From contig CACZDC010000014.1 of assembly GCA_902779785.1 (NCBI GenBank), positions 1 to 49,175 of the forward strand: a stretch of DNA of 49,175 bases, written 5' to 3'. Position 1 is the stretch's first letter. Every line of letters starts with the position of its first letter. The stretch is from an uncultured Bacteroidia bacterium. GTDB lineage: Bacteria > Bacteroidota > Bacteroidia > Bacteroidales > UBA932. A program made the position numbers and the translations under genes. This document shows, piece after piece, positions 2,535 to 37,170 of this stretch. A model generated the notes under the pieces. The model saw only the letters and a list, made by a program, of their open reading frames with translations. It made no database searches and had not been told where the DNA came from.

Positions 2535-2570
2535 CGCTCTTTAAAATCACAACCTAAACCAATCCTACCG

Positions 2571-2610
2571 GCCCGGAGGCGATTCAAGCAATCCCTCCGG
2601 GCTTGTTTTT
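2571..2610 (+). terminator. Rho-independent terminator after the GH5 gene
   Basis: GCCCGGAGG (2571-2579) pairs perfectly with CCTCCGGGC (2594-2602) around a 14-nt loop and is followed directly by TTGTTTTT. It lies 36 nt after the GH5 stop and separates that unit from the promoter of the large operon. Confidence 0.85.
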
Positions 2611-2627
2611 CGTGCGCACGCGTGCAT

Positions 2628-2675
2628 AAACCGGTTTGCAAACAGCCGTAATTTTTTCAGACCAGTGCAAACCAG
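2628..2675. promoter_or_regulatory. Paired operator (copy B) of the large operon
   Basis: The palindrome AAACCGGTTT recurs at 2628-2637. The second site at 2657-2673 repeats the 17 bases TCAGACCAGTGCAAACC found at 123-139, but its right half is degenerate (AGCATAG instead of GGTTTGA). The centres are 41 bp apart, against 40 bp in copy A. Promoters A and B therefore share the same two-site layout, which supports co-regulation by one dimeric or tetrameric DNA-binding protein, most plausibly LacI-type. Confidence 0.7.
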
Positions 2676-2689
2676 CATAGAAAAACTTT

Positions 2690-2697
2690 TATATTTG
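2690..2697 (+). promoter_or_regulatory. Bacteroidetes -7 promoter box TATATTTG of the large operon
   Basis: TATATTTG matches TAnnTTTG and lies 16.5 bp after the centre of the second operator site, almost as in copy A. No TTTG is visible at -33; that place is taken by the operator. Transcription would start near 2705, leaving a leader of about 68 nt before ATG 2773. This is the only good promoter seen ahead of the 21-gene run. Confidence 0.6.
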
Positions 2698-2772
2698 TAG
2701 TTGGAAGTCATTAAATTTTTTTAATAACATCCTCACTATACTAAACCATATTCTCAACATAGGACTCTGCTT

Positions 2773-6787: not shown

Positions 6788-6799
6788 AAGAGAACGACT

Positions 6800-10018: not shown

Positions 10019-10033
10019 AAGGAGGAACAAGTG

Positions 10034-11884
10034 ATGAAAAAGATTTTTAGCATTTTCGCAGTTTCCATCCTTGTCGCAGGATGCTCTTTCCTCGACGAGA
10101 ATATGAACACCCATTATTCTGCTGAGGACATCTTTGGCTCCGAAGAGGCTCTGGAGGCATATGTAACCGGTTGTTACAAGACCTTCGCGGAAAGTGGCTT
10201 CTATGCCGGTACGAACAACGAATGGTTCGCCCCCGGCTCGACTCTGCTGCACTGGAGCCTTCCCTCCGGTCTGTCCGACCCCCAGAAGCGCTGGATCGAC
10301 TGCCTGAGTCTGACGCAGTTCTCTCGCAATCCTTATAATGTTCTTGCTTACAAGGGGAAGTACACTACTATCTACAAGTGCAACAAGCTCCTTGCAGAAT
10401 TGCCCGGAAGCTCTGTAGACCAGAAGTACAAGGACCAGATTGAAGCGGAAGGCCGCTTCATCAGGGCGATGGCCTATTTCGACATCGTCCGCCGCTGGGG
10501 TAACGCTCCTATCCACACCGAGGTTGCCACTAACATCTCTGAGACCAGCGGTCCCAGGGAGCCCTTCTGGAAGCTCTACAAGCTGATCCTCGATGATCTC
10601 AGCTTCGCGGAAGAAAACGGTCGTGAATACGATGTGCAACGGAGTATCGCCGGCATCGGCACGGGCCGCATCTGCCGCGACGCCGCCACTGCGATGAAGG
10701 GTTTGGTTTACCTCACGATCGGCACCCTGCTGGAGCATTCCGCCCCGAACGACAACTTCTGGGTCTGCTCCAATGATGAAGTCTTCGCAGGCTTCGCCGA
10801 AGCCGGGGTCATCTCCGCAAAGGACGCCTTTGAAAAGGCGCTTGCCTGCGCCAAGGCGGTAATGCCTGAGACCGCGCCCAACTCACCGTACAAGCTGGCT
10901 TCCAGTTATGCCCAGCTCTTCCGTTGGACCGATCCCGAGGACTGGCAGCTACGCGAGCGCATCTTCTGTATTACCTCCACCAATGAGGCCGGTAGTTCCC
11001 AGCTCGCAACCTGGAGCCTGCCCCAGTATTACAACAATACCGGCAGTAACAACAACTACGGCCGTATCCGCCCGTCGCGCTTCCTTTTCCAGAAATGGTG
11101 CGAGACCTACGGCGGAGTGCTGGGAGCCGGTGATGCTGCCAACATTTACGTCAAATGCGGTGATCCGCGTATGGATGCTTCGTTCATCTACAACGAATTC
11201 CTGGGGCAGGACAACGCAGTCAAGTACTGCTATCCCTACTCCACCTGCGTTAAAAACAATCAGAAGCACCAAACCTTCCCGTTCTTTAAGAAGTACTACG
11301 ATCCGAAGTATGACGCCACTGCGGGTTATGCGGATCTTTACGTGATGCGTCTCGCGGAAGTGTACCTGATTGCAGCAGAGGCCGCCGCCAATCTTTGCGG
11401 TGCCCCTGGTGACAGCTACGGGCAGGAGGCCATCGGTTACGTGAATATCCTGCTCAACCGCGCGCGTCACTCGACCTCCGACGGAAGTGAGTCCGTCGAG
11501 CCTGCCGATTGGACGGCTGCCAACATACCGACCAAGGACGAGCTCATCGACAGGATCTTCTGGGAGCGCGCCTTCGAGATGACCGGTGAGCAGCACGAAT
11601 GGTGGGATACCCACAGGATGGGCGCTACATGGCTCGGACAGCACGTGACCTCTAAGGCCAATGAATTCCTCTTCCGCCCGGAACAGGATGATTTCGGCAG
11701 CAATTCGGATGGTCACCGCCGCTACTATTACGGCCTGGCAACCCACGGTGAAGGCAAGATCTACCCCGAAGAGCAGGCCGACGTACGCAAGGGCCTTATC
11801 TGCGCTTTCCCCAACGACGAGCTGATCTACAATTCCGCCCTGTCGCTGGAAGACCAGAATCCTCCTGAAATTTTCTGTGAATAA
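10034..11884 (+). CDS. susD: SusD/RagB-family surface glycan-binding lipoprotein
   Basis: ATG 10034 is chosen because AGGAGG lies 8 nt upstream; the GTG at 10031 would leave only 5 nt. The lipoprotein signal is MKKIFSIFAVSILVAGC, followed by SFLDENMNTHYSAEDIFGSEEAL, the usual SusD start. Typical SusD features follow: an early helix with EAYVTGCYKTF, EAEGRFIRAMAYFDIVRRWGNAP (the TPR region), LYVMRLAEVYLIAAEAAANL, and IFWERAFEMTGEQHEWWDTHRMG near the end. At 616 residues it is of normal to large size. It forms the extracellular lid of the preceding SusC and presents oligosaccharide to it. Confidence 0.93.
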   Translation: MKKIFSIFAVSILVAGCSFLDENMNTHYSAEDIFGSEEALEAYVTGCYKTFAESGFYAGTNNEWFAPGSTLLHWSLPSGLSDPQKRWIDCLSLTQFSRNPYNVLAYKGKYTTIYKCNKLLAELPGSSVDQKYKDQIEAEGRFIRAMAYFDIVRRWGNAPIHTEVATNISETSGPREPFWKLYKLILDDLSFAEENGREYDVQRSIAGIGTGRICRDAATAMKGLVYLTIGTLLEHSAPNDNFWVCSNDEVFAGFAEAGVISAKDAFEKALACAKAVMPETAPNSPYKLASSYAQLFRWTDPEDWQLRERIFCITSTNEAGSSQLATWSLPQYYNNTGSNNNYGRIRPSRFLFQKWCETYGGVLGAGDAANIYVKCGDPRMDASFIYNEFLGQDNAVKYCYPYSTCVKNNQKHQTFPFFKKYYDPKYDATAGYADLYVMRLAEVYLIAAEAAANLCGAPGDSYGQEAIGYVNILLNRARHSTSDGSESVEPADWTAANIPTKDELIDRIFWERAFEMTGEQHEWWDTHRMGATWLGQHVTSKANEFLFRPEQDDFGSNSDGHRRYYYGLATHGEGKIYPEEQADVRKGLICAFPNDELIYNSALSLEDQNPPEIFCE

Positions 11885-13444: not shown

Positions 13445-13456
13445 AAAGCTACAGCC

Positions 13457-14935
13457 ATGAAACGAATCTCCATATTATTTGTAACGCTGACCGCTCTGTG
13501 GGCTTGTGACATCAAGCCCGCAGAGGAGCCTATCGCCAACACCGGCGCCGCCAACTTTACCGCCTCCTTCGAGACTCCGGCGGGAATTCCTGCATATTGG
13601 GAGAGCGATGACAAACTGCTGGTGGTTGATTCCAATGATAACCTGCACCGTTTCGATATTGATGCAGGCATCGACAAACTCACCGGAGAATTCTCGGGCA
13701 CACTGTCGGAGAATAGTCAGGTAAAGTATATCGCTTACGCCAACGACCCCAATTCCATCGGGTATGAAGCCGCTTCGGAAGAATTTTCAATGGTGGTGCC
13801 TTCGGTGTACACGGCCAGGACGGCGAATGCCCTGGTGAAAGCAAATTCGGCCGCCATCGGTACGCTTCAGGGCAGCGAAGTTTTCCTCCATTCGGTCTGC
13901 GGCTTTATCAAATTCACACTGGAGCCCAACGGCAAGACCGTCGAGCAGGGCGGCAAGACCTACAACCTGACGGACCTGAAGCTGATTACCTTCAAGTCCA
14001 ACGAAGAAGACAAGTCCTTCGCAGGAACGGTCCACGCACGCTGGCCGGAAGGAGCCGCCACCCCGGAATTCCTGGACGTGGAAGACGGATCTTCCTCTAT
14101 CACTTTCCGTACCCGGATGGTCACGACGCCCGAGGGTGACATCTATTACGAGGCCGGCGACTACTACATCCCCGTCGTCCCGCAGAACTTCGAAGATGTA
14201 ACCATAACGGTGGAGGATGCAGACGGCAACGAAGCCACCGCCTTGGCGCACCGGGCCATTGATGTCAAGACCGCTGCCCAGTCCAATCTCAACATCATCC
14301 AATGGCCTACAATCGTTCTGGAGGTCAATCTCCAATGCGCCTCCAAGACAGAAGAACAGACGCACGCACAGCTGACCACCCTGCCCACCAATGGCCTGTC
14401 CGTGGATCGGGTCAACAACACCACGGGTGAGAAGGTCGAGGGGCTCTTCCCTAAGAAGACGGAGTACATCTTTGTTGAAAACGGGCTGGAATACAGTTTG
14501 TGGACGACAGCCGGTGTAGGACGCCAGACGGCGAGCGTAGGAGGCGGACAATATGCTATGTGCGACCTTTGCTTTGCATATTACAACGCCAACTGGAGCT
14601 ACCAGAGCCAGTCCTGGACAGCCGGGCAGCAAAGCAGCGTCTCCTGGATCAAACTCCCTGCCTATGACGGCATCCTGACCAAAGTTGAGATCAACAATTA
14701 CCACACGGGATCCACTGGCGCTATGAGCCTTTCATCCGAAGTGGACCCGGATACAGGTATCGGTGACCACGCGTATTATTATACAGAGAAACTCGTCGGC
14801 TCCAACGGATCCTTCAAGTGGGACTCCTTCCCCATTGCTGATGCAAAGCGCGGCGAGTCGGCCTATTTCTGTATGGAGTCCGGCAATAACTGGCGTATCC
14901 GCGGCTGGAGATTATCCTATAAAGTGTTTAATTAA
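13457..14935 (+). CDS. Fimbrillin-like lipoprotein with a C-terminal glycan-binding-type module
   Basis: A lipoprotein signal (MKRISILFVTLTALWAC) is followed by a fimbrillin-like N-terminal domain (about residues 30-280). The lines AYWESDDKLLVVDSNDNLHRF and SAAIGTLQGSEVFLHSVCGFI are of the type found in Bacteroidales FimA/Mfa-like proteins. The C-terminal 200 residues contain ISxIKLPAYDG-like and IRGWRLSYKVFN segments. These align by pattern with IKIPAKEGFKLTHIYIN and the end of the protein at 11897. The gene starts 12 nt after the previous stop. The likely role is a third surface glycan-binding protein using a fimbrillin fold as spacer instead of BACON repeats. This is inference; no adhesin polymerisation partner genes are nearby. 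Confidence 0.7.
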   Translation: MKRISILFVTLTALWACDIKPAEEPIANTGAANFTASFETPAGIPAYWESDDKLLVVDSNDNLHRFDIDAGIDKLTGEFSGTLSENSQVKYIAYANDPNSIGYEAASEEFSMVVPSVYTARTANALVKANSAAIGTLQGSEVFLHSVCGFIKFTLEPNGKTVEQGGKTYNLTDLKLITFKSNEEDKSFAGTVHARWPEGAATPEFLDVEDGSSSITFRTRMVTTPEGDIYYEAGDYYIPVVPQNFEDVTITVEDADGNEATALAHRAIDVKTAAQSNLNIIQWPTIVLEVNLQCASKTEEQTHAQLTTLPTNGLSVDRVNNTTGEKVEGLFPKKTEYIFVENGLEYSLWTTAGVGRQTASVGGGQYAMCDLCFAYYNANWSYQSQSWTAGQQSSVSWIKLPAYDGILTKVEINNYHTGSTGAMSLSSEVDPDTGIGDHAYYYTEKLVGSNGSFKWDSFPIADAKRGESAYFCMESGNNWRIRGWRLSYKVFN

Positions 14936-14941
14936 TTGCGT

Positions 14942-16996
14942 ATGAGAAGGATACTCTGTCTTCTTCCGGCAGCAATGCTGCTCGCCTGTTCCGAGCACGG
15001 AGATGTCGTGCTCGGGGCGCCGGGCGTAGAGGTCGTCCCGCATTATGCGGCCACTGTGGACATTAAAGATAACGCAGTCGATGTCACCGCTCTCAAAGAA
15101 TACGGCGAGGGTGGTGTAAGTATCAAAGGTCAATGGGACCTGACGGAGTACAACCGCCTGCGCTTCAAAGTTTCGAATCTGGAGCCGCTGGAGCATCTGA
15201 CGCTGGTCGCTTCCCTGTGCAATGAAAAGCAGGAGAAGATTCCCTGGCGGAGCACAGTGTTCGCCGGTCTGTTGAGCGAGCGTTTCCACGTGAAGCCTGG
15301 CGAGACGCTCACGCTCACGCTATGGCTCCCCGAAGCCGTCGCGCATCCGGAGATCGACAGCCTCTTCACCACGATGCAGAATACGCCCTACTCCTGCGGA
15401 AGGTTCAGTTACAACATCGATTGGAGCGACATCCGCGAGATACGCTTCAACCAGCGCTGGAACAAGGCGAATAACCATTTCCGCATCTCCGAAGTGGAAC
15501 TTTTGAAGGGAAAGAAGCAGAAAGGGCCGGAGTACCTGTCCTACAGCGCGGATGAATTCTTCCCCTTCATCGACAAGTACGGACAGTTCAAGCACAAGGA
15601 CTGGCCCGGGAAGATTCACTCCGACGAGGAACTCGCCGCAGCACGGGAAGAAGAAGAGCAAGACCTCACAGCCCATCCGGGACCGGATAACTGGGACAAA
15701 TGGGGCGGCTGGGCCAACGGCCCTCAACTGGAGGCCACGGGCCGTTTCCGCACCGAGAAAATTGACGGGAAATGGTGGCTGGTGGACCCGGACGGGCATC
15801 TGTTCTGGAGTCACGGTGTGCTGCGGATTTCCCCCGGCAATGCCGTCACCCCACTCAGTGCGCCAGGCCTTGCAGACCGGCGGAAGTTCTTTGAGGAGCT
15901 TCCGGCAAAGGATGATCCCGACTTGGGACACTTCTACGAAACTTTTGACCCGCTGCTTGGCAGCTATTACGCCGCCCGCGGCATCGATGACCACTTCGAC
16001 TTCTCCAGCGCCAACTGCTACCGCAAATACGGCCCGGATTACATGGCCGTGTACGGTAATCTTTGCCACCGGCGTCTCCGCAGCTGGAACATGAATACTA
16101 TGGCCAACGCCACCGAGCCCTCCATTACCTCAATGGGACGTACGCCCTGGTGCGACCGCTTCGAGATTGTCTCGAAGCCCATGTCCACCTCGGCCAAAAT
16201 CCTCTGGTGGAGCCTGCCTGATCCCTTCGATCCGTCCTTCAAGGCGGAGATCGACCGCCAGCTCCTGGCCCGGGAGAAGGAGCTTCAGGATCCTTGGTGC
16301 ATAGGCTTTTTCGTAGACAACGAGCACGCCTGGGGCAACCCGACGCATGTTACGGAATGCTCCCTTGATGCGGATGAGAATGCCGCCGTCAAGAAAGCGC
16401 TCCGAGGCTATCTGAAGGAGAAATACGGCAAAGCCGTTCCCTTCGAGGCCATGACCGAAGAGGACAAACTGGAGTTCAACGATATCGTCATCGAAAAATA
16501 CTACAGCACAATTAGGGAGGAATTCAACCGTCTCGCCCCCGGCCTGCTCTATCTGGGATGCCGCTTCGGCGGGCATCCGCACAATCCCCGTGTAATCGAG
16601 ATCGGGGCAAAATACTGCGACCTGCTGAGCTATAATATTTATAAGTACAATCTGGATTGCTTCACTCTTCCGGAGGGAGTCGACAAGCCGGTCCTGATCG
16701 GGGAATTCCACTTCGGCGCCATGGACCGCGGTCCCTTCCATCCGGGTCAGGTCTGGACGGCTGACCAGGCGGAAAGGGGCGAATGCTACAAGGATTATGT
16801 CCGTTCCGCTCTGGAGCACCCGAATTTCGTCGGCACCCACTGGCATCAGTTCTCAGACCAGGCCACAACGGGCCGCTTCGACGGCGAGGATTTCCAGGTC
16901 GGCTTTACCGATGTGTGCGACACTCCTTACAAAGAGACCGTTGAGGCTGCCCGGGAGATCGGCGCCAAAATGTATCAGATACGCTGGGAAAAATAG
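14942..16996 (+). CDS. GH50/agarase-like clan GH-A glycoside hydrolase, lipoprotein
   Basis: ATG 14942 gives a lipoprotein signal (RRILCLLPAAMLLAC); a TTG two codons earlier is less likely. Residues 30-200 form a beta-sandwich, carbohydrate-binding-like region. The catalytic part opens with DKYGQFKHKDWPGKIHS and WGGWANGPQLEATGRFRT then KWWLVDPDGHLFWSHGV, the signature run of proteins annotated as beta-agarase/GH50. The acid/base is probably Glu461 in FFVDNEHAWG and the nucleophile Glu588 in VLIGEFHFGAMDRG. At 684 residues it is of usual length. No sulfatase, GH117, GH86 or GH16 gene is present, so agar is an unlikely substrate. A terrestrial beta-galactan-like or other plant linkage is more plausible. 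Being lipid-anchored, it should act at the cell surface. Confidence 0.7.
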   Translation: MRRILCLLPAAMLLACSEHGDVVLGAPGVEVVPHYAATVDIKDNAVDVTALKEYGEGGVSIKGQWDLTEYNRLRFKVSNLEPLEHLTLVASLCNEKQEKIPWRSTVFAGLLSERFHVKPGETLTLTLWLPEAVAHPEIDSLFTTMQNTPYSCGRFSYNIDWSDIREIRFNQRWNKANNHFRISEVELLKGKKQKGPEYLSYSADEFFPFIDKYGQFKHKDWPGKIHSDEELAAAREEEEQDLTAHPGPDNWDKWGGWANGPQLEATGRFRTEKIDGKWWLVDPDGHLFWSHGVLRISPGNAVTPLSAPGLADRRKFFEELPAKDDPDLGHFYETFDPLLGSYYAARGIDDHFDFSSANCYRKYGPDYMAVYGNLCHRRLRSWNMNTMANATEPSITSMGRTPWCDRFEIVSKPMSTSAKILWWSLPDPFDPSFKAEIDRQLLAREKELQDPWCIGFFVDNEHAWGNPTHVTECSLDADENAAVKKALRGYLKEKYGKAVPFEAMTEEDKLEFNDIVIEKYYSTIREEFNRLAPGLLYLGCRFGGHPHNPRVIEIGAKYCDLLSYNIYKYNLDCFTLPEGVDKPVLIGEFHFGAMDRGPFHPGQVWTADQAERGECYKDYVRSALEHPNFVGTHWHQFSDQATTGRFDGEDFQVGFTDVCDTPYKETVEAAREIGAKMYQIRWEK

Positions 16997-16999
16997 ATA

Positions 17000-17752
17000 A
17001 TGTCGGAAGGGATTATATTCAGCATCGAGGAGTTCGCTGTCAACGACGGCCCTGGAATCCGTACTACGGTATTCTTGAAGGGTTGTCCGCTCCGCTGCGC
17101 CTGGTGTCACAATCCCGAGGGATGGAACCCTGCTCCTGAAACGCTTCTCAAAAAGGGGAGGGAGGAGATGTGTGGTTATCGGATCAGCGCTGAAGAGCTT
17201 GCAAAGCGCCTGTCCCGCGATACTGACCTCTTCCGCGACAGCGGCGGCGGGGTCACATTCACTGGCGGCGAACCGCTGCTGCAGGCCGAATTCCTTGCAG
17301 AAGTGATGGATCTTCTGCCGGATATCAACAAGGCGGTGGAGACAAGCGCTTACGCCCCGGAGGAGAGTTTTCGGAAGGTGATGGAGCGGGCGGATATTCT
17401 GCTATTCGACATAAAACTGATTGACCCGGATATGCACAAGCGCTACACCGGCGCCGACAATGGCCCTATTCTCCGCAATCTTGATATACTGAAGGCGTCC
17501 GGCAGGCCTTTTATCGCCAGGATTCCCCTGATTCCCGGGGTCAACGACAGTAAGGAGAACATGGAGGCAAGCGCGGATTTGCTTCGGGATGCTCCGGGGC
17601 TCAAAAGGGTCGAATTGCTGCGCTACAACAAGATTGCCGGCGCCAAATATCCGATGCTGTCTCTCACCTATGCTCCTCCCTTTGATGAAACGATAGAACC
17701 TGCCATCCACGATACATTTACAGAGAAAGGTATTAAAATGATTATTCCATGA
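17000..17752 (+). CDS. Glycyl radical enzyme activating enzyme (radical SAM), short form
   Basis: The 250-residue protein has the radical-SAM cluster C29-x3-C33-x2-C36 in KGCPLRCAWCHNPEGW, the SAM motif TGGEP at residues 88-92, and the opening DGPGIRTTVF typical of glycyl-radical activases. It generates the glycyl radical on its partner by reductive SAM cleavage in the anaerobic cytosol. Most activases of the eliminase class carry a ferredoxin-like insert with eight cysteines after the first cluster. Here the insert is missing and only Cys58 remains, so the layout resembles pyruvate formate-lyase activase. The gene starts 3 nt after the preceding stop and overlaps the glycyl radical enzyme by ATGA (17749-17752), which fits a dedicated pair. 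Confidence 0.92.
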   Translation: MSEGIIFSIEEFAVNDGPGIRTTVFLKGCPLRCAWCHNPEGWNPAPETLLKKGREEMCGYRISAEELAKRLSRDTDLFRDSGGGVTFTGGEPLLQAEFLAEVMDLLPDINKAVETSAYAPEESFRKVMERADILLFDIKLIDPDMHKRYTGADNGPILRNLDILKASGRPFIARIPLIPGVNDSKENMEASADLLRDAPGLKRVELLRYNKIAGAKYPMLSLTYAPPFDETIEPAIHDTFTEKGIKMIIP

Positions 17753-19818
17753 TAGAAAGACTTCAAACGCTTCGTGCGTTTATACGTTCGGGCGGCCATC
17801 ATAAGTTCCGCCATACCCCTGAAGAATTCGGCCTGGACCGCCTTGCTGAAAGCTTCCGCGCTGAAGCTGTTCCCCCTGTGGAGCGGAGCGCCAGGATGCT
17901 CAGGGCACTGCTCAATGCGGAAATGCCCTTGATCCTTGAGGGCGAGAAAATTGTCGCGACCCGCACTATCAGCCGTATTCCCTCTATATTTACGGAGGAA
18001 GAATGGGCGGAGATACGCGCCCATCATACCCTGCATGAGCGCGGTACCGTCTCCAACCTTTCCGCCGACTACGAGGGCATCCTCCGGGACGGCCTGGGCA
18101 AGCGTAAGGCTGAGGTAACGGCCCGTTTGGAGGATCCGGCCCTTTCGCAGGAGCAGCGCCTCTTTCTCTCCGCTGCCCATGAGAGCATTACGGCCGTTCA
18201 GGACTTCATTTTGAAGTACCGCGACTGTGCCCGCAACGCAGGGATGGACGAAACGGCAGAAGTCCTGTCCCACATCCACAGCGCAGGGGCAAAAACTCTC
18301 AGGGAAGCCCTGCAATTGCTGCGCATCGTGCATTTCGCCCTATGGGAAAGTGACTGTTATCACAACACGCTTGGCCGTTTCGACCAGTATATGTATCCAT
18401 ATTACCGGACTGATATCGCCGCCGGGCGTCTTACCAAAGAACAGGCCTTCGACCTGATTGAGGAATTCTTCCTCACTTGCAACAAGGATAGTGATCTCTA
18501 CGTCGGCATGCAGCAGGGTGACAATGGCCAGAGCATCGTGCTTGCCGGCCGCGACCCCCAAGGGAATTATCTCTTCAACGAAGTGTCGAAGATGTGTCTC
18601 AGAGCCAGTTATGAACTTAATCTGATTGACCCGAAGATTAACCTTCGCTGCGATGCGCTCACTCCGCTTGATGTATTCGTTGAAGGGGCGAAACTCACCA
18701 AGCGAGGACTTGGATTCCCCCAGTACGACAATGACGATGTTGTCATTCCTGGCCTTTTGAAACTCGGCTATAAACCAGAAGATGCATACAATTATGTAGT
18801 CGCAGCCTGCTGGGAATTCATCATACCCGGCAGTGGGATGGAGATTCCGAACATCGATGCCCTGTCATTTGCCGGTATCGTCAGCGAGGCCGTAGAGGAT
18901 CTCGGAAAGTTTGACAACTACGATGCATTTTACTCCCATATCGACCTCAAGATTAAGGCAGAGTGCGACCGGATAACTGCCGCACACGACAATCTCTACA
19001 TAGTGCCGGCGCCTTTCCTGTCGATGATTATGAGCGGAACGATTGAGCGCGCGCAGGATATTTCTCTGGGTGGTAACACCAACAATTATGGGGTCCATGG
19101 TACAGGTCTCTCGACGGCGGCGGATTCGCTCGCTGTAATCAAGAAGTACTACTTTGAAGAAAAATCCCTATCTTTAGAAGAACTGATGGATGCTGTCCAC
19201 CATAACTTCAAGGGGCATGAAGCCCTTCAGGAGCGTCTCCGGAATGAGGCGCCCAAGATGGGCCTGGACGATGACGGCGCCGATGCCATCGGAACCGCTC
19301 TGCTGGATTCCTTCTCCACGGGGCTCCGAGGCAAGCGCAACGAGCGTGGAGGCATCTGGCGGGCCGGTACCGGCACGGCAATGTACTACATTTTCCACGC
19401 AAAAGACCTTCCGGCGACCCCGGACGGCCGCAGCTGCGGGGAAGTCATCCCCGCTAATTTTACTCCGAGCATGTTTCTGAGGCAGAAGGGGCCCGTTTCC
19501 GTAATGCGCTCCTTCTCCAAGCAGCATCTCGAGGATGCCATCAACGGAGGCCCGCTCACAATAGAACTTGATGAGAGCATCTTCCGCAGCGAGGAGACTG
19601 TGGAGAAACTGGCTATGCTGATCCGCTCCTACATCAAGCGCGGCGGCCATCAACTCCAACTTAACACCCTCAATAAGGACACTCTCCTCGATGCAAAGGT
19701 CCATCCGGAGGAGCACCGCGACCTGATTGTCCGCGTCTGGGGATGGAGCGGATATTTCGTGGAACTGGACGAGTGCTATCAGGACCACATTATTGAACGT
19801 ATAAAATACAAGATATGA
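17749..19818 (+). CDS. Short glycyl radical enzyme of unknown substrate (PFL/eliminase superfamily)
   Basis: 689 residues, shorter than the usual 780-850. The family frame is clear: HNTLGRFDQYMYPYY, the catalytic thiyl-radical Cys354 in VAACWEFIIPG with Glu356 two residues on, and the glycyl loop near the C-terminus with Gly665 in VRVWGWSGYFVELD. The C-x-E pair is the mark of dehydratase/lyase-type enzymes and differs from the Cys-Cys pair of pyruvate formate-lyase. The loop has Trp before the radical Gly, where Ser, Ala or Thr is common. No substrate can be named; glycerol, propanediol, choline, hydroxyproline and isethionate enzymes are all larger in general. It is coupled to its activase and to a sugar carrier by ATGA overlaps, and is one of very few cytosolic enzymes in the operon. 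I infer that it acts on a sugar or sugar derivative released from the glycan. Confidence 0.9.
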   Translation: MIERLQTLRAFIRSGGHHKFRHTPEEFGLDRLAESFRAEAVPPVERSARMLRALLNAEMPLILEGEKIVATRTISRIPSIFTEEEWAEIRAHHTLHERGTVSNLSADYEGILRDGLGKRKAEVTARLEDPALSQEQRLFLSAAHESITAVQDFILKYRDCARNAGMDETAEVLSHIHSAGAKTLREALQLLRIVHFALWESDCYHNTLGRFDQYMYPYYRTDIAAGRLTKEQAFDLIEEFFLTCNKDSDLYVGMQQGDNGQSIVLAGRDPQGNYLFNEVSKMCLRASYELNLIDPKINLRCDALTPLDVFVEGAKLTKRGLGFPQYDNDDVVIPGLLKLGYKPEDAYNYVVAACWEFIIPGSGMEIPNIDALSFAGIVSEAVEDLGKFDNYDAFYSHIDLKIKAECDRITAAHDNLYIVPAPFLSMIMSGTIERAQDISLGGNTNNYGVHGTGLSTAADSLAVIKKYYFEEKSLSLEELMDAVHHNFKGHEALQERLRNEAPKMGLDDDGADAIGTALLDSFSTGLRGKRNERGGIWRAGTGTAMYYIFHAKDLPATPDGRSCGEVIPANFTPSMFLRQKGPVSVMRSFSKQHLEDAINGGPLTIELDESIFRSEETVEKLAMLIRSYIKRGGHQLQLNTLNKDTLLDAKVHPEEHRDLIVRVWGWSGYFVELDECYQDHIIERIKYKI

Positions 19819-21137
19819 AAACAGGATTAAAGGCTTACATGTTCTGGGTGGCTTTCGTGGCCTCCCTCGGCGGACTGCTGTTCGGTTTCGACACGGCTGT
19901 AATCTCCGGTGCCGAGAAACAAATCCAAGCGGTTTACGGCCTGTCAGACTTTGCCCATGGCTTCACGATTGCAACGGCTCTTGTCGGCACCATAATCGGT
20001 GCCCTGTTTTGCGGAAAACCGGCGGAGCGTTTCGGCCGCAAGAAGTCCCTTATCGTCATCGGTATTCTGTACCTTATTTCCGCAGTATTTAGCGGGGCGA
20101 TTGTTAACTGGTACTCCTTTATGTTCTTCCGCTTCCTTGGCGGTCTGGCCGTCGGAGCATCTTCAGTGGTCGGTCCCATGTTCATAGCGGAGATTTCACC
20201 GGCAGCCTGGAGAGGACGCTTTGTCTGTTTCTTCCAGTTCAACATAGTACTGGGTATAGTGCTGGCCTATTTCTCCAACTACTGGATTTCCGGCGTGCCC
20301 AACGACTGGCAGTGGATGATCATGGCAGAATCCATTCCGGCCTTCCTGTTCAGTGCCCTTATGTTCACTATGCCGGAGAGCCCGCGCTGGCTGGTTAAGC
20401 AGGGAAGAGAAGACGATGCAAAGCTTGTCTTTGAGAAAACTGGAGAAAAGGACATTCCCGGCGAACTGGAGGCCATCCGTCAATCTCTGGCCGACGCCAG
20501 CGCCAAGGGCGGCAAACTCTTCCAGAAGAAGTACTGGAAACCTCTCCTTATTGCCTTCCTGATTTCCACGATCAATCAGCTCAGCGGTATCAACGCTATA
20601 CTTTACTATGCTCCGCGCCTGCTTGAGATGTCCGGTGTATTCCGCGAGGGAGCCATGCTGCAGAGCATAATCATAGGCCTTACCAACCTTACCTTCTCCA
20701 TGCTCGGCATGGTCCTGATTGACAAACTCGGACGCAAGACGCTTATAGGCATCGGGGCAATAGGCATGGTGATCTGCCAGGCAATGGTGGCCCGCGGCTT
20801 TGCCCTGGAGGCCTTCCATGGCTACTACATGCTCATCTTCCTGGTAGGATATGTGGCCTTCTTCGCCCTCTCGCTCGGCGCCACCATCTGGGTGGTCATC
20901 GCCGAAGTCTTCCCTAACGACGTGCGTGCCGGCGGCCAGGTGTTCGGCAGCATGACCCACTGGGTATGGTCGGCCCTCCTGACCTGGTTCTTCCCGATGT
21001 TCCTGTCAATCGGCGGACAGTACATCTTCACCTTCTTCTCAATCATGGCTGCTCTGGCTATCCTCTTTGCATGGTGGATGCCTGAGACTAAGGGAAAATC
21101 ACTTGAACAGATTCAGAAAGAATTAGTTAAAGAATAA
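19815..21137 (+). CDS. MFS sugar porter family transporter (XylE/GalP-like)
   Basis: 440 residues with twelve predicted membrane segments. It carries sugar-porter signatures: GGLLFGFDTAVISGA in helix 1, GKPAERFGRKKSL after helix 2, PESPRWLVKQGR at the end of helix 6, QLSGINAILYYAP in helix 7, DKLGRKTL, and PETKGKSLEQIQKEL at the C-terminus. This family moves hexoses, pentoses, polyols or inositols across the inner membrane, usually by proton symport. Its start overlaps the end of the glycyl radical enzyme by ATGA. Import of that enzyme's substrate or precursor is therefore the simplest reading, although it could equally carry the main monosaccharide released by the periplasmic enzymes. Confidence 0.92.
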   Translation: MKTGLKAYMFWVAFVASLGGLLFGFDTAVISGAEKQIQAVYGLSDFAHGFTIATALVGTIIGALFCGKPAERFGRKKSLIVIGILYLISAVFSGAIVNWYSFMFFRFLGGLAVGASSVVGPMFIAEISPAAWRGRFVCFFQFNIVLGIVLAYFSNYWISGVPNDWQWMIMAESIPAFLFSALMFTMPESPRWLVKQGREDDAKLVFEKTGEKDIPGELEAIRQSLADASAKGGKLFQKKYWKPLLIAFLISTINQLSGINAILYYAPRLLEMSGVFREGAMLQSIIIGLTNLTFSMLGMVLIDKLGRKTLIGIGAIGMVICQAMVARGFALEAFHGYYMLIFLVGYVAFFALSLGATIWVVIAEVFPNDVRAGGQVFGSMTHWVWSALLTWFFPMFLSIGGQYIFTFFSIMAALAILFAWWMPETKGKSLEQIQKELVKE

Positions 21138-21144
21138 ATATATT

Positions 21145-22599
21145 ATGAAAAAAGTACTTCTGGCCTCCCTGGCCATCCTGCTGACCATCAGCGCATCCAC
21201 ACAGGAACTCAAGAAATCCGTCACCTGGGACAAATTCCGCGGCCGTCCGGCTCCGATTAAGGTGATCGGAGAATTGGTCCCCACCCATTCCAGCCTTGAC
21301 CGCCCGTCCTTCTGGTCGGTAGGCTGCGAGACGATGGACCGTGATTACGCCCTCTTCGAGAAATTCCATCAGTACGTGGGCGAGACCGGTGTCGGCTACG
21401 CCCGCCTGCAGAGCGGCTGGGCCAAATGCGAGCCCAAGAAGAAGGGGAAATATGACTTTGCCTGGCTGGATGCCCATGTCGACGGTCTCATCGCTGAGGG
21501 AATCCATCCCTGGATGTGCCTGTGCTATGGTAATCCGCTCTATACTGACGGCGGCAAAGATCTGAATGCCCGCCTCTTCGGTGACGGCCCCATTATGGAC
21601 GGCTGGCTCAAATATGTCAAACAGGTCGTAAAGCGTTACAAGGGCAAGGTTACGATGTACGAGGTATGGAACGAACCGGACGGTGCCCGTGATGCCAACG
21701 GAAAATGGGTGGCGGCCAAGAACTGGGCCGATTACGCCCTGCTGTTCGCCCGCACGGCCCAGGTCATCCACGAAACCGATCCAGACGCCAAAATCTGCGC
21801 CTTCGGAGCCTTCTCCATCCGTACGGACTACTTCAAGGAAGGAATGAAACGGATTGCCGAACTCGGCGCCGGAGACCTTGTGGATTATGTTACCTACCAC
21901 GCTTACTGGCCGCAGCCGGAGCGCCTCATTCCCCTTGTCAAAAAACTTCAGGATGACATCCACGCCGTCAATCCCAACACTATCCTTCTTCAGGGCGAGA
22001 GCGGCTGTCCTTCACGTCTGGACTACGGCCACGCAATGTGTTTCAGGGAGTGGACGGAATACAGCCAGGCCAAATGGGATCTTCGCCATACCTTGATGAA
22101 TTTCTCCCTGGGCGTTCCTTCTTCCATCTTCACGATGGTAGATCTCCATTACAAGGATTATATGATCCAGAGTTTCGGTCTTATCTGCACCAACCTAAAG
22201 AGCGAACCTCAGTACAAGCGTCCCAAGTTCTACGCCATCCAGCACCTGACAAGTGTGATTACAGCGGACTGCAAGGCCTCCGACGATTACCGGATCACCG
22301 GTGCGAGCGTCACCGACGACATTACTCTGGTTGGTGTGCGGAAGGCCGATAAGCCGGTCGGTTTCCTGCTATGGCTCTCCGGTGAAGAACCGGGTAGCAG
22401 CCTGGACCGCAAACTGGTGGATTTCACCGTCAGCGGCCCGCTCCTGAGCGATCCGGTGTATGTGGACATGGTGACAGGTTTTGTGCATGAGATGAAGGAT
22501 CTGGAGAAGCGCTTCGACAATACGACCCGTTTCAACGCCTTCCCCATCTGGGATGCCCCGATTTTTGTATGTGAAAGAAACGCTGTGAATTTCAAATAA
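21145..22599 (+). CDS. Clan GH-A glycoside hydrolase, GH39/GH51-like, periplasmic
   Basis: A signal peptide (MKKVLLASLAILLTISASTQ) precedes a (beta/alpha)8 domain. The fourth-strand motif YEVWNEPDG holds the acid/base Glu177; YHAYWP and LLQGESGCPS hold the seventh-strand region with nucleophile candidate Glu285. About 80 C-terminal residues form a beta-sandwich. The order and spacing fit clan GH-A families such as GH39, GH5 or GH51, but no family signature is decisive. It may be an unassigned family. No lipobox is present, so it is expected in the periplasm, where it would trim imported oligosaccharides. The gene sits 7 nt after the transporter stop. Confidence 0.7.
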   Translation: MKKVLLASLAILLTISASTQELKKSVTWDKFRGRPAPIKVIGELVPTHSSLDRPSFWSVGCETMDRDYALFEKFHQYVGETGVGYARLQSGWAKCEPKKKGKYDFAWLDAHVDGLIAEGIHPWMCLCYGNPLYTDGGKDLNARLFGDGPIMDGWLKYVKQVVKRYKGKVTMYEVWNEPDGARDANGKWVAAKNWADYALLFARTAQVIHETDPDAKICAFGAFSIRTDYFKEGMKRIAELGAGDLVDYVTYHAYWPQPERLIPLVKKLQDDIHAVNPNTILLQGESGCPSRLDYGHAMCFREWTEYSQAKWDLRHTLMNFSLGVPSSIFTMVDLHYKDYMIQSFGLICTNLKSEPQYKRPKFYAIQHLTSVITADCKASDDYRITGASVTDDITLVGVRKADKPVGFLLWLSGEEPGSSLDRKLVDFTVSGPLLSDPVYVDMVTGFVHEMKDLEKRFDNTTRFNAFPIWDAPIFVCERNAVNFK

Positions 22600-22608
22600 A
22601 GCCTGACT

Positions 22609-25314
22609 ATGCTCTCCGCTCTATTGGTCGCCATGCTCCTGCAGGCGGCGCCGATGTTCCCGTATGTTCCCACGCATAATGCGCCGGCGAATATCACTAA
22701 CGTATCAACCTGGCCCTCCTGGAAAAAAGGCAAAGCCGGAGACAGCGGATTCATCCAGTCGGTGGATGACCATTTCGTGGACGGGACCGGTGCCCAGCGC
22801 CGCTTCCTGGGGACGAATATCTGTTTTACCGGTTGCTTCCCGACTCATGAGGACGCTGACAGAGTGTCCGCGGAACTCGCCCGCTACGGTATCAACCTGG
22901 TGCGCCTGCACTACGTCCATCACCGCCTCCCGAAAGAACGGGCCTATCCTAAACCCAATTCTTTCCTGGAGCCCGAACAGCTGGAGCGTTTCGACTATCT
23001 CTTCTCCAAGCTGAAGGAGCATGGCATCTACATTTATTTCCAGCTTAACATTTCCCGCAAGTTCGGAGAGGTCAATGGTATTGTAAACGCCAAGCAGCTG
23101 CCCCATTTCTATCACGGGGTAGACAACTTCGACTACCAGTTCCTCGCCCTCCAGAAGAATTTCATCACTGAAATCCTTGCCCATGTTAATCCGTATACCG
23201 GCCTCGCCTATAAGGATGAACCGGCAATCGGGATGCTGGAACCAGCTAACGAGAACACCATTACCTATGCGTGGTTTACTCCGCGTTACCGCTTCCCGAA
23301 CCTGGTGGAGCCCTATATGTCGGAATTCAAGACGATGTGGAATTCCTGGCTCAAGGACAGGTACAGCAGTACCTCGGAACTGAAAGAGGCATGGATGTCC
23401 GGTTTCGAAGGGGATGGGACCGAATTCTTCCCCGATGGCGTACTCAGCGAGAACTACGACAAGACTAACTGGATGCTGCAGCTGGACGGAAAGGCCGAAG
23501 GATTTATTTCTCTGGAGCCTGCCGCGCCGAAGGACAAACTTAAGGGGACGCACTATATGCGCGCCGTCGTGACCAAGAAAGGCGCTACGCCCAACATGCC
23601 GCAGTTCTGCAAAGGGCCCATCGCTGTCAAAAGCATGGCCCCATATACGCTGAAACTTAAGATGCGGGCCGATAAAAACATTGCGGTAGATATGCGTCTG
23701 AGCCAGTCCCATGCTCCCTGGCAGGTGGCCGGCCTCACGGTGACGGGCATTCAGCTCACCAAGAAATGGCAGGAGTTCACATTCCCGTTCGTGGCGAATA
23801 TGGACGATGAAGCCGTGCGCCTGGTGGTCTGCAGTTTTGAGCCTGGCACCTACGAGTTCGCTGACCTTTCCCTTACCGCCGGAGCCACGGTGAAATGGCC
23901 TAAGGAGTGGAGTCTGGAAGAAGGGAACATTCCCATCCCTACCCGCGCGCAGTGGTCCATGCCGCCTCAGCGGGCCGTGGATTTCACTGCTTTCCTGAGC
24001 CATCTGGAGGACCTTTATTTCGGCCAGATGTACAGCCATGTTAAAGTGGGCGCCGGAGCCAGGCAGCCGGTGACAGGGACCCAGATTCTCTGGGGCTTCT
24101 CCCAGCCTCATTCCCGCACTGACTACATAGATCTTCACAGCTATTACAACCATCCCATCTTCCCCAATACCCTCAAGGACTACCACAACTGGAGCATGGG
24201 CTCCGGAGCGCTGGTCAACGAAATGGGGAAGAACAATGAGAACAGGCTTTCGTCCGATGCCCGTGCGCGCATTCTGGGACGTCCGCTCACCATCAGCGAG
24301 TACGACCATCCCAACTTGAGTTATTGGGCGGCCGAGGGCAATGTGATAGGGTCTGCCATTGGGGCCTTCCAGAACTGGTCCGGCATCCTTCAGTTTGCCT
24401 GGAGCCACTCAGATAACTTTTTCAGGGATGTGATGGACAGCCGTTTCGACATGTGCAGCGCACCGCAGAAGCTGGCCCACCTGCCGGCCTGTTACTCGAT
24501 GTTCGTTCGTGGAGACGTCCAGACCGGTTCGGCCGATACCCTGGTGGCCCGTCTGGCCCGCATCGAGGACGATATCAAGACGGTGGCCATTACCCAGGGA
24601 CCTTCGGCCCATAACCGTGCCCCTTCCCGCGGCCTGATGGAAACGCTTCCTGTCATGATGCGTTCCGGTACCGTGATTATGGAAAACGAGGGGCAGTTCC
24701 CTCTGGAAGGACACACCGTCATAACCAAAGAGGAGGAGGTCCCGCAGCATTGGAAAGATGCTTACGAGGCCAGGAAGATGATTACTTCCACCGGGGAATT
24801 AACCTGGGACTGGCAGGAGAAAGGTGCCGGCTTCTTCAAGGTGGATACGGACTATACAAAGGCCTTTACCGGCTTTGTCCACGGCCGTAGTTTCGAATAC
24901 AAGGGCCTTACGCTTACCCCCGGTGAAACCCAGAAAGACTGGCTTACCCTAACCCTTACCTGCAAGGCGCCCGGAAAACTGCAGCCTGGCGGTAAACTGG
25001 CAAAAGGCAGCTGGCTGCTGGCGGTCACCGGACAATGCCGCAATACTGATGAGGTAATTGTAACGCTTGCGCAGGGTAAGCGCATATCGGCCAGTGAGGC
25101 TGACGGCGGCAAGGTCGGAGTGGCTCCTATCCTCTGCGAAGGGGTGCCCGCGCAGCTCCGTCTGAAGGGACTCGCCGGCAGAGTGCAGTTCTTCGCCCTG
25201 GATGTGGACGGCTTCCGTAAAACCATGATTCCCGTCACGGCCGACGGTGGGGACGCTCTGCTCCAGACCGGGCCAGACTATCAGACATTCTGGTATGAAA
25301 TAGTAGTGAAATGA
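22609..25314 (+). CDS. Large clan GH-A glycoside hydrolase with an inserted CBM-like domain
   Basis: 901 residues with a signal peptide (MLSALLVAMLLQAAP). The N-terminal part of a (beta/alpha)8 barrel contains RRFLGTNICFTGCFP, INLVRLHYVHH and the acid/base Glu215 in MLEPANENTI. Roughly residues 285-440 are a jelly-roll module (WMLQLDGKAEGFISLEP ... EFTFPF...AVRLVVCSFEPGTYEFADLSL) resembling CBM4/9 folds. It is placed inside the barrel gene before the barrel resumes with the nucleophile Glu564 in LTISEYDHPN. The last 250 residues form beta-sandwich domains. Similar proteins are often annotated only as cellulase-like hydrolases. Substrate unknown; probably periplasmic. It starts 9 nt after the previous stop and ends in an ATGA overlap with the next gene. 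Confidence 0.7.
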   Translation: MLSALLVAMLLQAAPMFPYVPTHNAPANITNVSTWPSWKKGKAGDSGFIQSVDDHFVDGTGAQRRFLGTNICFTGCFPTHEDADRVSAELARYGINLVRLHYVHHRLPKERAYPKPNSFLEPEQLERFDYLFSKLKEHGIYIYFQLNISRKFGEVNGIVNAKQLPHFYHGVDNFDYQFLALQKNFITEILAHVNPYTGLAYKDEPAIGMLEPANENTITYAWFTPRYRFPNLVEPYMSEFKTMWNSWLKDRYSSTSELKEAWMSGFEGDGTEFFPDGVLSENYDKTNWMLQLDGKAEGFISLEPAAPKDKLKGTHYMRAVVTKKGATPNMPQFCKGPIAVKSMAPYTLKLKMRADKNIAVDMRLSQSHAPWQVAGLTVTGIQLTKKWQEFTFPFVANMDDEAVRLVVCSFEPGTYEFADLSLTAGATVKWPKEWSLEEGNIPIPTRAQWSMPPQRAVDFTAFLSHLEDLYFGQMYSHVKVGAGARQPVTGTQILWGFSQPHSRTDYIDLHSYYNHPIFPNTLKDYHNWSMGSGALVNEMGKNNENRLSSDARARILGRPLTISEYDHPNLSYWAAEGNVIGSAIGAFQNWSGILQFAWSHSDNFFRDVMDSRFDMCSAPQKLAHLPACYSMFVRGDVQTGSADTLVARLARIEDDIKTVAITQGPSAHNRAPSRGLMETLPVMMRSGTVIMENEGQFPLEGHTVITKEEEVPQHWKDAYEARKMITSTGELTWDWQEKGAGFFKVDTDYTKAFTGFVHGRSFEYKGLTLTPGETQKDWLTLTLTCKAPGKLQPGGKLAKGSWLLAVTGQCRNTDEVIVTLAQGKRISASEADGGKVGVAPILCEGVPAQLRLKGLAGRVQFFALDVDGFRKTMIPVTADGGDALLQTGPDYQTFWYEIVVK

Positions 25315-27149
25315 GAAAGATCTTCCTACTGTGCGCTTTCGTTGCCCTCCTTGCTTCCTGCGGGAACGGAAAGGAGGACGCCGGCAATATGGTGCAGCGG
25401 AATTTCACGCTCTCTCAGGACCCGTACAACATGACTTTCCTGGGGATGGAGTCGTCCATCCCCTCGAGTATTTCCTTGGCGGCGGGGGAAAAGATTCTGG
25501 TGGTCTCAGGCGTAAAAAGCGCCACTGAGGCCACCGTCTCCGGCGGGCGTGTTGCGGCGCAGGTGGATGAATCGGCCAACAAGATCACTTTCGTGCGTGG
25601 AAAAGCCTCCTTCTCGGGGGGCGTCGCCATCATCAATCCCGCCTACGACGGCTCGGCTCCCGATGCCGCCCTTGCCACTGGGCAGGGGACAGTTTCCGGC
25701 GGTTCGGTCAAGTTAGACCCTATCGGCGCCGTGCTGCGCTTCTCTGTGGCGAATCCGGACATACGGAAGGTCTCCTTCTTTAGTTCGGAATCAGTGTTTC
25801 CGGGCAAGGCCACCATGGACCTGGCCCGGCAAAAGCTCGATTTTACGACCCGGAAACAGTCGGTAACGGTTTCCGTGAGCCGGACAGGAGAGTTCTACAT
25901 ACCGGTGATTTCCGGCTTTACGGCCATCACCCTCAAACTGGAGTGGAAGGATGCCTCCGGCACTGTTCTGGGCACCAAGCGCGGCACTGTCGAATGGGAT
26001 TGTTCCGCAGGCGACATGCTCAATCTGGGTAACATTGAAACCTGCGTGCTTGAAAGCTCGGACATTCCGCTACCGGATCCGAGCATACCGCAGTCCGAGG
26101 TGGCCGTCCAGGCCGTGTCCGGAATGGGAGTGGGCATGAACCTGACCGGATTGGAACACTGCTGGGAGAGCCTTATCACCAAACCCCAGCGGGATGATCC
26201 CTCCTATTATGAGAAGGCCGGAGGCTATGGCCTCATTACGACCAAGACCATGCAGACCATTGCCGATGCGGGCTACAAGTGCGTCCGAGTTCCCGTCACC
26301 TGGCACCTGCATATGGACAGCATCACCGGCGCTATCGACAAGCCGTGGCTGGACCGGGTGGAAGAGGTCGTGGACCTGGCCTTGAACGCAGGCCTGTACG
26401 TAATCATCAACCTGCACCATGATGCCGGGACAATTATCGGTGTATGGTGCATCTCTGACATAGAGCATTACGAAACCACCAGCGCCGGTCTCGTCAATAT
26501 ATGGACACAGATTGCAGAGCGCTTCAAAAACCACGACTACAAACTCCTGTTCGAGGGATACAATGAGATGCTTGACGGAGCCAATACCTGGACCTATCCC
26601 AAACAGTCCTCGTCCATCGACGTGTGCAATCAGCTGTGCCAGGACTTCGTGAATGCGGTGCGCCGGACGGGCGGGAAGAACTCTACCCGCAACCTTATCG
26701 TCAGTACCTACGCCACCACGGCTACCACACGTGCCGTGGAGGCCTTCAAGATGCCCAAAGATGTTGCTGCCGGCCATCTGTTCGTCCAAGTCCATTCTTA
26801 TGCTCCCAGCGAGTTTTGCTCGCAGCAGGCTACAAGCCGCAATAATCTCATCGAAGGAGATTTTGCATCGATGGAGGCGGTCTTCGAACCTCTGGACCGG
26901 GTGTTCCTGGCAAAAGGATATCCCGTGGTTATGGGTGAGTTCGGGGCCTGCCCCCGCGAGGGTCGCAGCGAAGATGACCGTGCCATCCACGCAGGTTATA
27001 TGACGAAACTATGCCTGCAACACAAGGTCGTGCCCATCATATGGTACAACCCATTGAATAACGCAGAGCGCTCGGACGGAGTTTGGAAGTACCCGAATGT
27101 CAGGGATGCCATGATTGACGCTTATAACGATTATATTGCCATACAATGA
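25311..27149 (+). CDS. Fimbrillin-like/GH5 endo-beta-glycanase lipoprotein
   Basis: 612 residues. The lipobox LLASC is followed by GNGKED and a fimbrillin-like beta domain (about residues 25-245, with AVLRFSVANPDIRKVSFFS and GEFYIPVISGFTAITLKLEW). A short Pro-rich linker leads to GH5 at about residue 268 (SGMGVGMNLTGLEH). Motifs are YKCVRVPVTWHLHMD, NLHHDAG, the acid/base Glu419 in EGYNEMLDG and the nucleophile Glu543 in VVMGEFGA. It should be an endo-acting beta-glycanase at the cell surface, possibly GH5_4-like xyloglucanase or glucanase. The fimbrillin domain presumably holds the enzyme away from the membrane. It is a paralogue of the genes at 396-2534 and 27146, and overlaps both neighbours by ATGA. 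Confidence 0.87.
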   Translation: MRKIFLLCAFVALLASCGNGKEDAGNMVQRNFTLSQDPYNMTFLGMESSIPSSISLAAGEKILVVSGVKSATEATVSGGRVAAQVDESANKITFVRGKASFSGGVAIINPAYDGSAPDAALATGQGTVSGGSVKLDPIGAVLRFSVANPDIRKVSFFSSESVFPGKATMDLARQKLDFTTRKQSVTVSVSRTGEFYIPVISGFTAITLKLEWKDASGTVLGTKRGTVEWDCSAGDMLNLGNIETCVLESSDIPLPDPSIPQSEVAVQAVSGMGVGMNLTGLEHCWESLITKPQRDDPSYYEKAGGYGLITTKTMQTIADAGYKCVRVPVTWHLHMDSITGAIDKPWLDRVEEVVDLALNAGLYVIINLHHDAGTIIGVWCISDIEHYETTSAGLVNIWTQIAERFKNHDYKLLFEGYNEMLDGANTWTYPKQSSSIDVCNQLCQDFVNAVRRTGGKNSTRNLIVSTYATTATTRAVEAFKMPKDVAAGHLFVQVHSYAPSEFCSQQATSRNNLIEGDFASMEAVFEPLDRVFLAKGYPVVMGEFGACPREGRSEDDRAIHAGYMTKLCLQHKVVPIIWYNPLNNAERSDGVWKYPNVRDAMIDAYNDYIAIQ

Positions 27150-37166: not shown

Positions 37167-37170
37167 GACC

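Follow-up and report, generated by a model that had tools for sequence, protein, structure and literature searches.

The DNA analysed here, called the window, is a whole contig of 49175 bases (C14) from the 2.78-Mb assembly of an uncultured Bacteroidia bacterium (126 contigs, 95% complete, 4.8% contamination). At positions 17000-21137 it encodes a radical S-adenosylmethionine (SAM) activase, a 689-residue glycyl radical enzyme (GRE) and a sugar porter of the major facilitator superfamily (MFS). The oxygen-sensitive GRE was found to belong to a sharply defined family, present in several phyla and tied to plant-fibre sugars, whose members are marked by two motifs, C-W-E around the catalytic cysteine and W-G-W around the radical glycine. 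Our best reading of the sequences and models is that this is a new family of GRE eliminases acting on a sugar of plant origin, L-arabinose being the likeliest; gene order, family, fold, residues and partner genes were computed, and from these we infer substrate and reaction. Among the reactions of the anaerobic gut, some of the most difficult are catalysed by GREs. According to a 2024 review (PMC11574389), many of the GREs that are abundant there lack a known function, and the listings from searches of open-licence papers contained no description of the CWE/WGW family, nor of any GRE linked with arabinofuranosidases. Should the enzyme dehydrate a common free sugar, plant-pentose fermentation would gain a new first step, and deoxy sugars a biocatalyst. 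Family members occur in named strains, for example Diplocloster modestus ASD4241, which makes the function directly testable.

The three open reading frames (ORFs) of the trio are intact, lie on the + strand and are joined by two 4-base ATGA overlaps, one between activase and GRE, the other between GRE and porter. The activase (17000-17752, 250 residues) scored 69.7 bits with Radical_SAM and 235.7 with NCBIfam TIGR02494 (cut-off 174.35), and contains the CX3CX2C motif at C29/C33/C36. The GRE (17749-19818) matched the PFL-like domain (PF02901, 294.5 bits) and the Gly_radical domain (PF01228, 77.0 bits), both above the gathering score. Its catalytic motifs are AACWEFII, containing C354 and E356, and RVWGWSGYF, containing G665; it is the sole PF02901 match found in its genome assembly. 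The porter (19815-21137, 440 residues) scored 348.6 bits with Sugar_tr and 328.2 with TIGR00879, above the sugar-porter cut-off of 237.8, and XylE was its nearest relative. ORFs, Pfam and NCBIfam thus bear out the preliminary description of this DNA, which had reported three ATGA-overlapped genes inside a SusC/D locus and had placed Cys354, Glu356 and Gly665 in the active site.

The CWE/WGW family and its partner genes

Genome contigs were scanned for relatives of the GRE, and the best 80 of 582 confirmed stretches were kept. Among these the family was sharply bounded, with 77 loci (L036 to L112) inside and L113 to L115 outside. The hosts are Bacteroidota, Clostridia, Spirochaetes, Verrucomicrobia and Planctomycetes, and the source assemblies, from several phyla, are mostly of animal-gut and rumen origin. 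For counting motifs L033 and L131-L139 were added, giving 87 sequences from 86 loci (L133 and L067 are a single locus). C-W-E was present in 87/87 sequences and W-G-W in 83/87, the other four (L056, L070, L096 and L111) ending before the motif. The L096 ORF (2-1300) ends ahead of the radical glycine region though the DNA runs on, and is frameshifted, degenerate or misassembled. Two matches to the CWE/WGW GRE per genome were seen in G421, G424, G447 and G618.

Residues were compared in an alignment of 74 sequences, which included the window and L033, omitted L053, L056, L068, L071 and L077, and treated partial sequences as gaps. Gaps excluded, N103 (71/71), H205 (72/72) and N368 (73/73) were invariant. 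Together with Q255, D258 and N259 they are the invariant polar residues of the family, as would be expected for a polyhydroxylated ligand, and they are mostly missing in the compared GREs of the order. In PflD, YbiW and all 28 other GREs of the order that were compared, the radical site reads Ala-Gly-Tyr and the place of W355 is taken by Val or Ile; 29 of these 30 carry His at the N103 position, with a gap in the remaining one. R538 was dropped as a family-specific residue, Arg being found also in 18/28 other GREs of the order.

In the tree the family stood apart from other GREs, and the window enzyme fell inside a well-supported Bacteroidota/Verrucomicrobiota clade. A survey of 393 genomes of the order yielded a single close relative beyond the window's own genome (G289, 59%), all others being at 39% or less among the matches listed. 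This sample includes two genomes from the same genus and three from the same family; none of the five matched the GRE at E 1e-20, and for this reason the gene was probably acquired. Viral contigs gave one distant partial match in one search and none in another, and plasmid records gave 18 GRE matches, all below 60% identity and ten of them below 30%.

The AlphaFold model of the window GRE (predicted local distance difference test, pLDDT, 92.3; predicted template modelling score, pTM, 0.91) has the GRE fold, with TM-scores up to 0.89 to solved GREs. Foldseek ranked glycerol dehydratase first (TM 0.89, 25% identity); propanediol dehydratase came next, then choline lyase, and PflD was 18th. In a profile search the scores were 393 bits for glycerol dehydratase (1r8w), 381 for PflD and 370 for diol dehydratase; choline lyase was also among the top matches. 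Arylacetate decarboxylases and succinate synthases scored below the C-O eliminases in these comparisons. With HypD, CutC, the sulfopropanediol dehydratases, PFL and the indoleacetate and 4-hydroxyphenylacetate decarboxylases, the scores were far below the NCBIfam equivalog cut-offs, and identity to all 50 solved GRE chains listed was at most 25%; the window enzyme clusters with no characterised GRE, in line with the preliminary description. In the profile alignment N103 and N368 of the window GRE take the places of His164 and Asp447 of glycerol dehydratase, and H205 that of His281. Of the three dehydratase residues, which we take to form the acid-base network of the B12-independent glycerol and propanediol dehydratases, only the equivalent of His281 is retained. 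Asn at the His164 and Asp447 places, together with the eliminase-like fold and profile, points to an eliminase-type GRE whose predicted active site is rebuilt.

An activase lies within 5 kb of the GRE in 72/77 loci. Of the five others, L056, L076, L080 and L096 are near a contig end, and both 10-kb flanks of L074 lack one. Within the Bacteroidota/Verrucomicrobiota clade the activases have lost a cysteine-rich insert: between CX3CX2C and GGEP there are 0-2 Cys in 13/13 relatives read and one in the window, as against mostly 7-10 in clostridial activases, 4-9 in a sub-clade linked to AraC-like regulators, 8-10 in L050 and L055, and 1 in L106. Without the ferredoxin-like insert, the activases of the window, L034, L036-L045, L047 and L070 are natural single-cluster GRE activases.

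A XylE-like MFS porter is present in 14/16 Bacteroidota/Verrucomicrobiota loci (L033, L036-L045, L047, L050 and L055); the exceptions are L070, which is cut inside the GRE, and L096, which has no MFS gene in 10 kb downstream. Because the trio recurs in relatives, its chance insertion into the window's locus was rejected. Within 1.5 kb of the GRE such a porter was found in 13/77 family loci compared with 0/28 other GRE loci, whose flanks of about 1.3 kb are too short for glycosidases to be judged.

Arabinofuranosidase genes (PF07944 or PF06964/PF22848) occur in 19/86 loci and are the most frequent glycosidase partner searched for; other glycosidase families were not searched systematically. The beta type (PF07944) was assigned in L033, L042, L043, L044, L045, L051, L054, L061, L066, L086, L096 and L138, with direct Pfam support in L033, L051, L066, L086 and L138. 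The alpha type was assigned in L041, L042, L054, L061, L063, L065, L077, L083, L084 and L097, with direct Pfam support in L041, L042, L054, L061, L084 and L097. The remaining assignments came from clusters, BLAST or a genome-level PF07944 search, the weakest being L065 (24% identity) and L096 (two pieces). The 42 GRE genomes (138.7 Mb, rounded sizes) contain 99 PF07944 genes, and at the threshold used for this density PF07944 was found in 8/40 loci against 0.55 expected (Poisson p ~1.2e-7, in a test which ignores that glycosidase genes cluster generally). The L066 protein fell just short of the E-value of this threshold and is outside the eight. L066 and L086 are compact, with a LacI-type regulator, activase, GRE and GH127 gene in succession, followed by unassigned genes, some of them transport-like in L066.

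Aldose epimerase, detected by BLAST in 7/86 loci, recurs in Bacteroidota. Further recurring partners are pentose-type transporters, two-domain sugar ATP-binding cassette (ABC) ATPases and LacI regulators; in a tally of 76 operon proteins no enzyme was dominant. Adjoining the porter in L042, gene 13451-15919 fuses a 3-keto-disaccharide-hydrolase-like (LamG) domain to the C-terminal domain of an alpha-arabinofuranosidase. A clostridial sub-clade (L091, L093-L095, L098-L100, L102-L104, L109 and L110) mostly adjoins an AraC-like regulator, is without the glycosidase partners searched for, and may have a different substrate.

Three Lachnospiraceae loci, L058 (Diplocloster modestus), L107 (Lachnospiraceae) and L059 (a C. 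symbiosum assembly), have in common the GRE, its activase, GH78, a GH88-like hydrolase and a sugar ABC transporter, and all hold LacI, DeoC, an FGGY kinase, a zinc alcohol dehydrogenase (Zn-ADH) and an SGL-type beta-propeller. The beta-propeller and the GH88-like gene of L059 were assigned by similarity of their first residues. DeoC scored 229.3 and 243.1 bits (cut-off 117.3) in the loci scanned, and Lys and Asp at the positions which we assume to be catalytic are retained in all three. The kinase is xylulokinase-like (XylB-like) and of the ketose type, with scores of 375.0 and 396.8 against a cut-off of 380.25. An aldo-keto reductase near the GRE of L058 resembles L-glyceraldehyde-3-phosphate reductase (411.9, under the cut-off of 448), and a 58% relative stands directly 5' of the GRE in L068; L059 has one of another type, similar to YdjG, and the L107 stretch showed none. 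In these few genomes DeoC would call for an intermediate of the 2-deoxy type, and the reductase-like gene would suit an L-pentose. Upstream of activase and GRE, L052 carries a split transketolase, Zn-ADH, a MerR-type regulator, an aldehyde dehydrogenase and an unassigned 266-residue protein (2467-8897), possibly a second downstream route.

Proposed reaction and competing explanations

Since the GRE machinery is intact, the profile and fold are eliminase-like and the polar residues are invariant, the enzyme is proposed to act as a dehydratase (C-O eliminase) on an unphosphorylated aldose, with L-arabinose as the likeliest substrate, in a module for catabolism of the free aldose. Our confidence in this proposal comes somewhat short of even. 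It draws further on the arabinofuranosidases, the XylE-like porter, the aldose epimerase, the sugar ABC ATPases, LacI, and the DeoC, kinase and Zn-ADH genes beside the GRE.

The XylE-like porter would bring the monosaccharide into the cytosol, where the epimerase would equilibrate its anomers. The activase would set the radical on Gly665, from which it would move to Cys354, and this cysteine would abstract hydrogen from the sugar carbon next to the carbon losing its oxygen. Elimination of water, with H205 and E356 as the likely acid/base residues, would give a deoxy-carbonyl sugar. In the Lachnospiraceae three further steps would follow: reduction of the product by the Zn-ADH, phosphorylation by the xylulokinase-like kinase and cleavage by the DeoC-type aldolase, the last of which would fit loss of the 2-OH. 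We infer this regiochemistry and order of steps, and the window enzyme is presumed to have the same function as its clostridial relatives. A more specific form of the proposal, that the 2-OH of free L-arabinose is expelled after hydrogen abstraction from the sugar, in the manner of ribonucleotide reductase, and that the resulting keto-deoxypentose is reduced, phosphorylated and cleaved by DeoC to acetaldehyde and L-glyceraldehyde-3-phosphate, is conceivable but rather unlikely. If true, it would amount to a new anaerobic pentose pathway bypassing AraA, AraB and AraD, with acetaldehyde as an extra electron acceptor.

Several observations weigh against dehydration of L-arabinose. No gene of the Pfam-annotated window was assigned as an arabinofuranosidase, and kinase and aldolase are missing from the window. 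Arabinofuranosidases were absent from 67/86 loci in the DNA covered, which is often short, and in the AraC-type clostridial loci not one of the glycosidase partners searched for was present. The DeoC cluster is present in three genomes only, and its glycosidases, GH78 and GH88-like, point to rhamnose or a uronate rather than to arabinose.

Neighbours elsewhere also suggest other sugars: GH36-like or raffinose-synthase-like genes in 11/86 loci, GH78 adjoining the GRE in L059 and L107, and GH106 in L047. The same chemistry might thus act on D-galactose, L-rhamnose or D-xylose as the free aldose, perhaps depending on the sub-clade. D-galactose has the C2-C4 configuration of L-arabinose, the porter is XylE-like, and the window contains beta-agarase-like and GH2 genes. 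Given that arabinofuranosidases are the commonest of the glycosidase partners searched for, we consider another aldose a serious candidate of limited probability.

Alternatively, the sugar might first be reduced to a pentitol, which the GRE would dehydrate like glycerol dehydratase to a 2-deoxyaldose for kinase and DeoC. The nearest solved relatives are indeed glycerol and diol dehydratases, and the aldo-keto reductases of L058 and L068 could supply the reduction. The recurring aldose epimerase of Bacteroidota argues for a cyclic aldose instead, and His164 and Asp447 of the diol dehydratases are replaced by Asn, so that an alditol dehydratase appears improbable.

Less probable still is a radical aldose-ketose isomerase or ring opener, acting on the aldose in the way of YbiW and PflD and standing in for the arabinose isomerase AraA. 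AraA scored above its cut-off in 14/42 GRE genomes, 8/11 of the GRE genomes with ribulokinase above cut-off were without it, and the kinase near the GRE is of the ketose type. However, AraA was found in 51/199 control Bacteroidales. Of the Bacteroidales with ribulokinase above cut-off 5/48 were without AraA, but among 196 Clostridia 35/46 ribulokinase genomes (E <= 1e-100) had no AraA above 100 bits and 3/46 had the GRE, which is carried by 15/196 of these genomes. The controls in Bacteroidales and Clostridia remove the signal, DeoC would be left unexplained, and replacement of AraA was dropped as unsupported. The AraB/AraD neighbourhoods of AraA-less genomes contained no clear substitute gene; in the window's genome AraA and AraD were not found, and kinase matches were weak only.

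That the GRE is simply one of the enzymes already known (AG6P/AM6P lyase, hydroxyproline dehydratase, choline lyase or sulfopropanediol dehydratase) is very improbable and was rejected. It has the same fold and shares the C-x-E and R-V-x-G motifs, but its scores are 70 to 270 bits where the equivalog cut-offs of the full-length known enzymes lie between 994 and 1150, and it forms a separate clade with different active-site residues.

The glycan locus around the trio

The trio is surrounded by a SusC/D locus with two TonB-dependent receptors, SusD, BACON, three GH5, GH3, GH2, two GH31 and SASA. An adjacent SusC/SusD pair (6800-10018 and 10031-11884) together with the glycosidases identifies it as a polysaccharide utilization locus. 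The window was compared with the loci of 13 relatives, whose flanks reach no further than roughly 10 kb; in L040 the large ORFs that precede the trio carry no annotation. Only the activase, GRE, MFS porter, aldose epimerase, a beta-helix protein and a GH31 had strong counterparts there, and those of the latter three stand after the trio in L036, L038, L039 and L040. The aldose 1-epimerase (36078-37166, + strand, start probably at an internal ATG) is 69% identical to its counterpart in L040 and 68% to that in L036, and adjoins the trio in relatives. The right-handed beta-helix protein (36961-38856, +, start probably at an internal MKRILL with signal peptide) matches L039 (59%), where it follows the MFS gene, and L038 (64%), where it follows the epimerase. 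The GH31 alpha-glycosidase (40288-42663, +) is 67% identical to the L040 gene directly 3' of the epimerase.

The rest of the locus had no close counterpart in the 13 relatives' loci, SusC, GH3 and GH2 giving weak matches only (28-31%). This applies, all on the + strand, to the TonB-dependent receptor, SusC-like receptor and SusD (4316-11884), to the beta-agarase-like protein directly 5' of the activase (14936-16996, 290 bits, presumably GH50), and to the run between porter and epimerase (21145-36156), which comprises a weak GH39, a 901-residue protein with no close solved relative, two GH5, GH3, GH2 and a disrupted GH31. The trio therefore seems to belong to a small sugar module interleaved here with a larger glycan locus, and this weakens any deduction of the substrate from the latter. 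The preliminary description had proposed a radical step dedicated to a product of the window's glycan. Sugar dehydration is still the best inference, whereas the dedication to this glycan is not supported, GH5, GH50 and SusC/D being without close counterparts in the relatives' loci compared. It had also described nearly every other enzyme of the run as exported, which overlooked the epimerase: by eye this has no signal peptide, and it belongs with the trio.

PDB matches of the window's GH5 and GH31 include xyloglucanases and alpha-xylosidases, which suggest, but do not settle, the target glycan. A beta-agarase-like gene within this GH5/GH31 locus is unexpected if the target is a land-plant glycan. 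The GH31 at 34508-36156 appears disrupted, with an N-terminal part of 119 residues and an overlapping part of 464 residues in another frame. At 366-2534 the GH5 catalytic ORF (1455-2534) lacks a signal peptide and follows a 349-residue ORF; this gene may be broken too, since in the neighbouring GH5 genes (25311-27149 and 27146-29047) a long N-terminal part and GH5 form a single ORF. A PDDEXK-family transposase-like gene (43003-43626) lies directly after the operon.

Comparison with known glycyl radical enzymes

The window GRE shares with the B12-independent glycerol and propanediol dehydratases (1r8w and 5i2g) the fold (TM 0.89 and 0.88-0.89, respectively), the C-x-E motif, the radical glycine, the eliminase branch and the His281 equivalent H205. 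It differs from them in its identity of 25%, a length about 100 residues shorter, Asn in place of His164 and Asp447, the CWE and WGW motifs and the sugar-locus setting. The known ring-dehydrating GRE has the fold in common with the window enzyme, at 22% identity and 269.7 bits against an NCBIfam cut-off of 1100. Class III anaerobic ribonucleotide reductase is a GRE that removes the 2-OH of a sugar via a 3-carbon radical. It can serve as a model for the proposed 2-deoxygenation, likened by chemistry alone, its substrate being a nucleotide and the protein a different one.

The nearest functional precedent is offered by YbiW and PflD, so that sugar derivatives as such are not new as GRE substrates. 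According to PMC12441222 and to PDB titles, these enzymes cleave or open 1,5-anhydrohexitol-6-phosphates; the list of known GRE substrates in the preliminary description was thus incomplete. Like the proposed activity, theirs is the breaking of a C-O bond of a sugar derivative, and their genes are clustered with sugar genes. Unlike the window GRE, YbiW and PflD carry His at the N103 position, and with 22-25% identity they fall into separate clades of the tree and do not cluster with it. Their substrate is phosphorylated and delivered by the phosphotransferase system (same paper), and E. coli ybiW adjoins FsaA, not DeoC.

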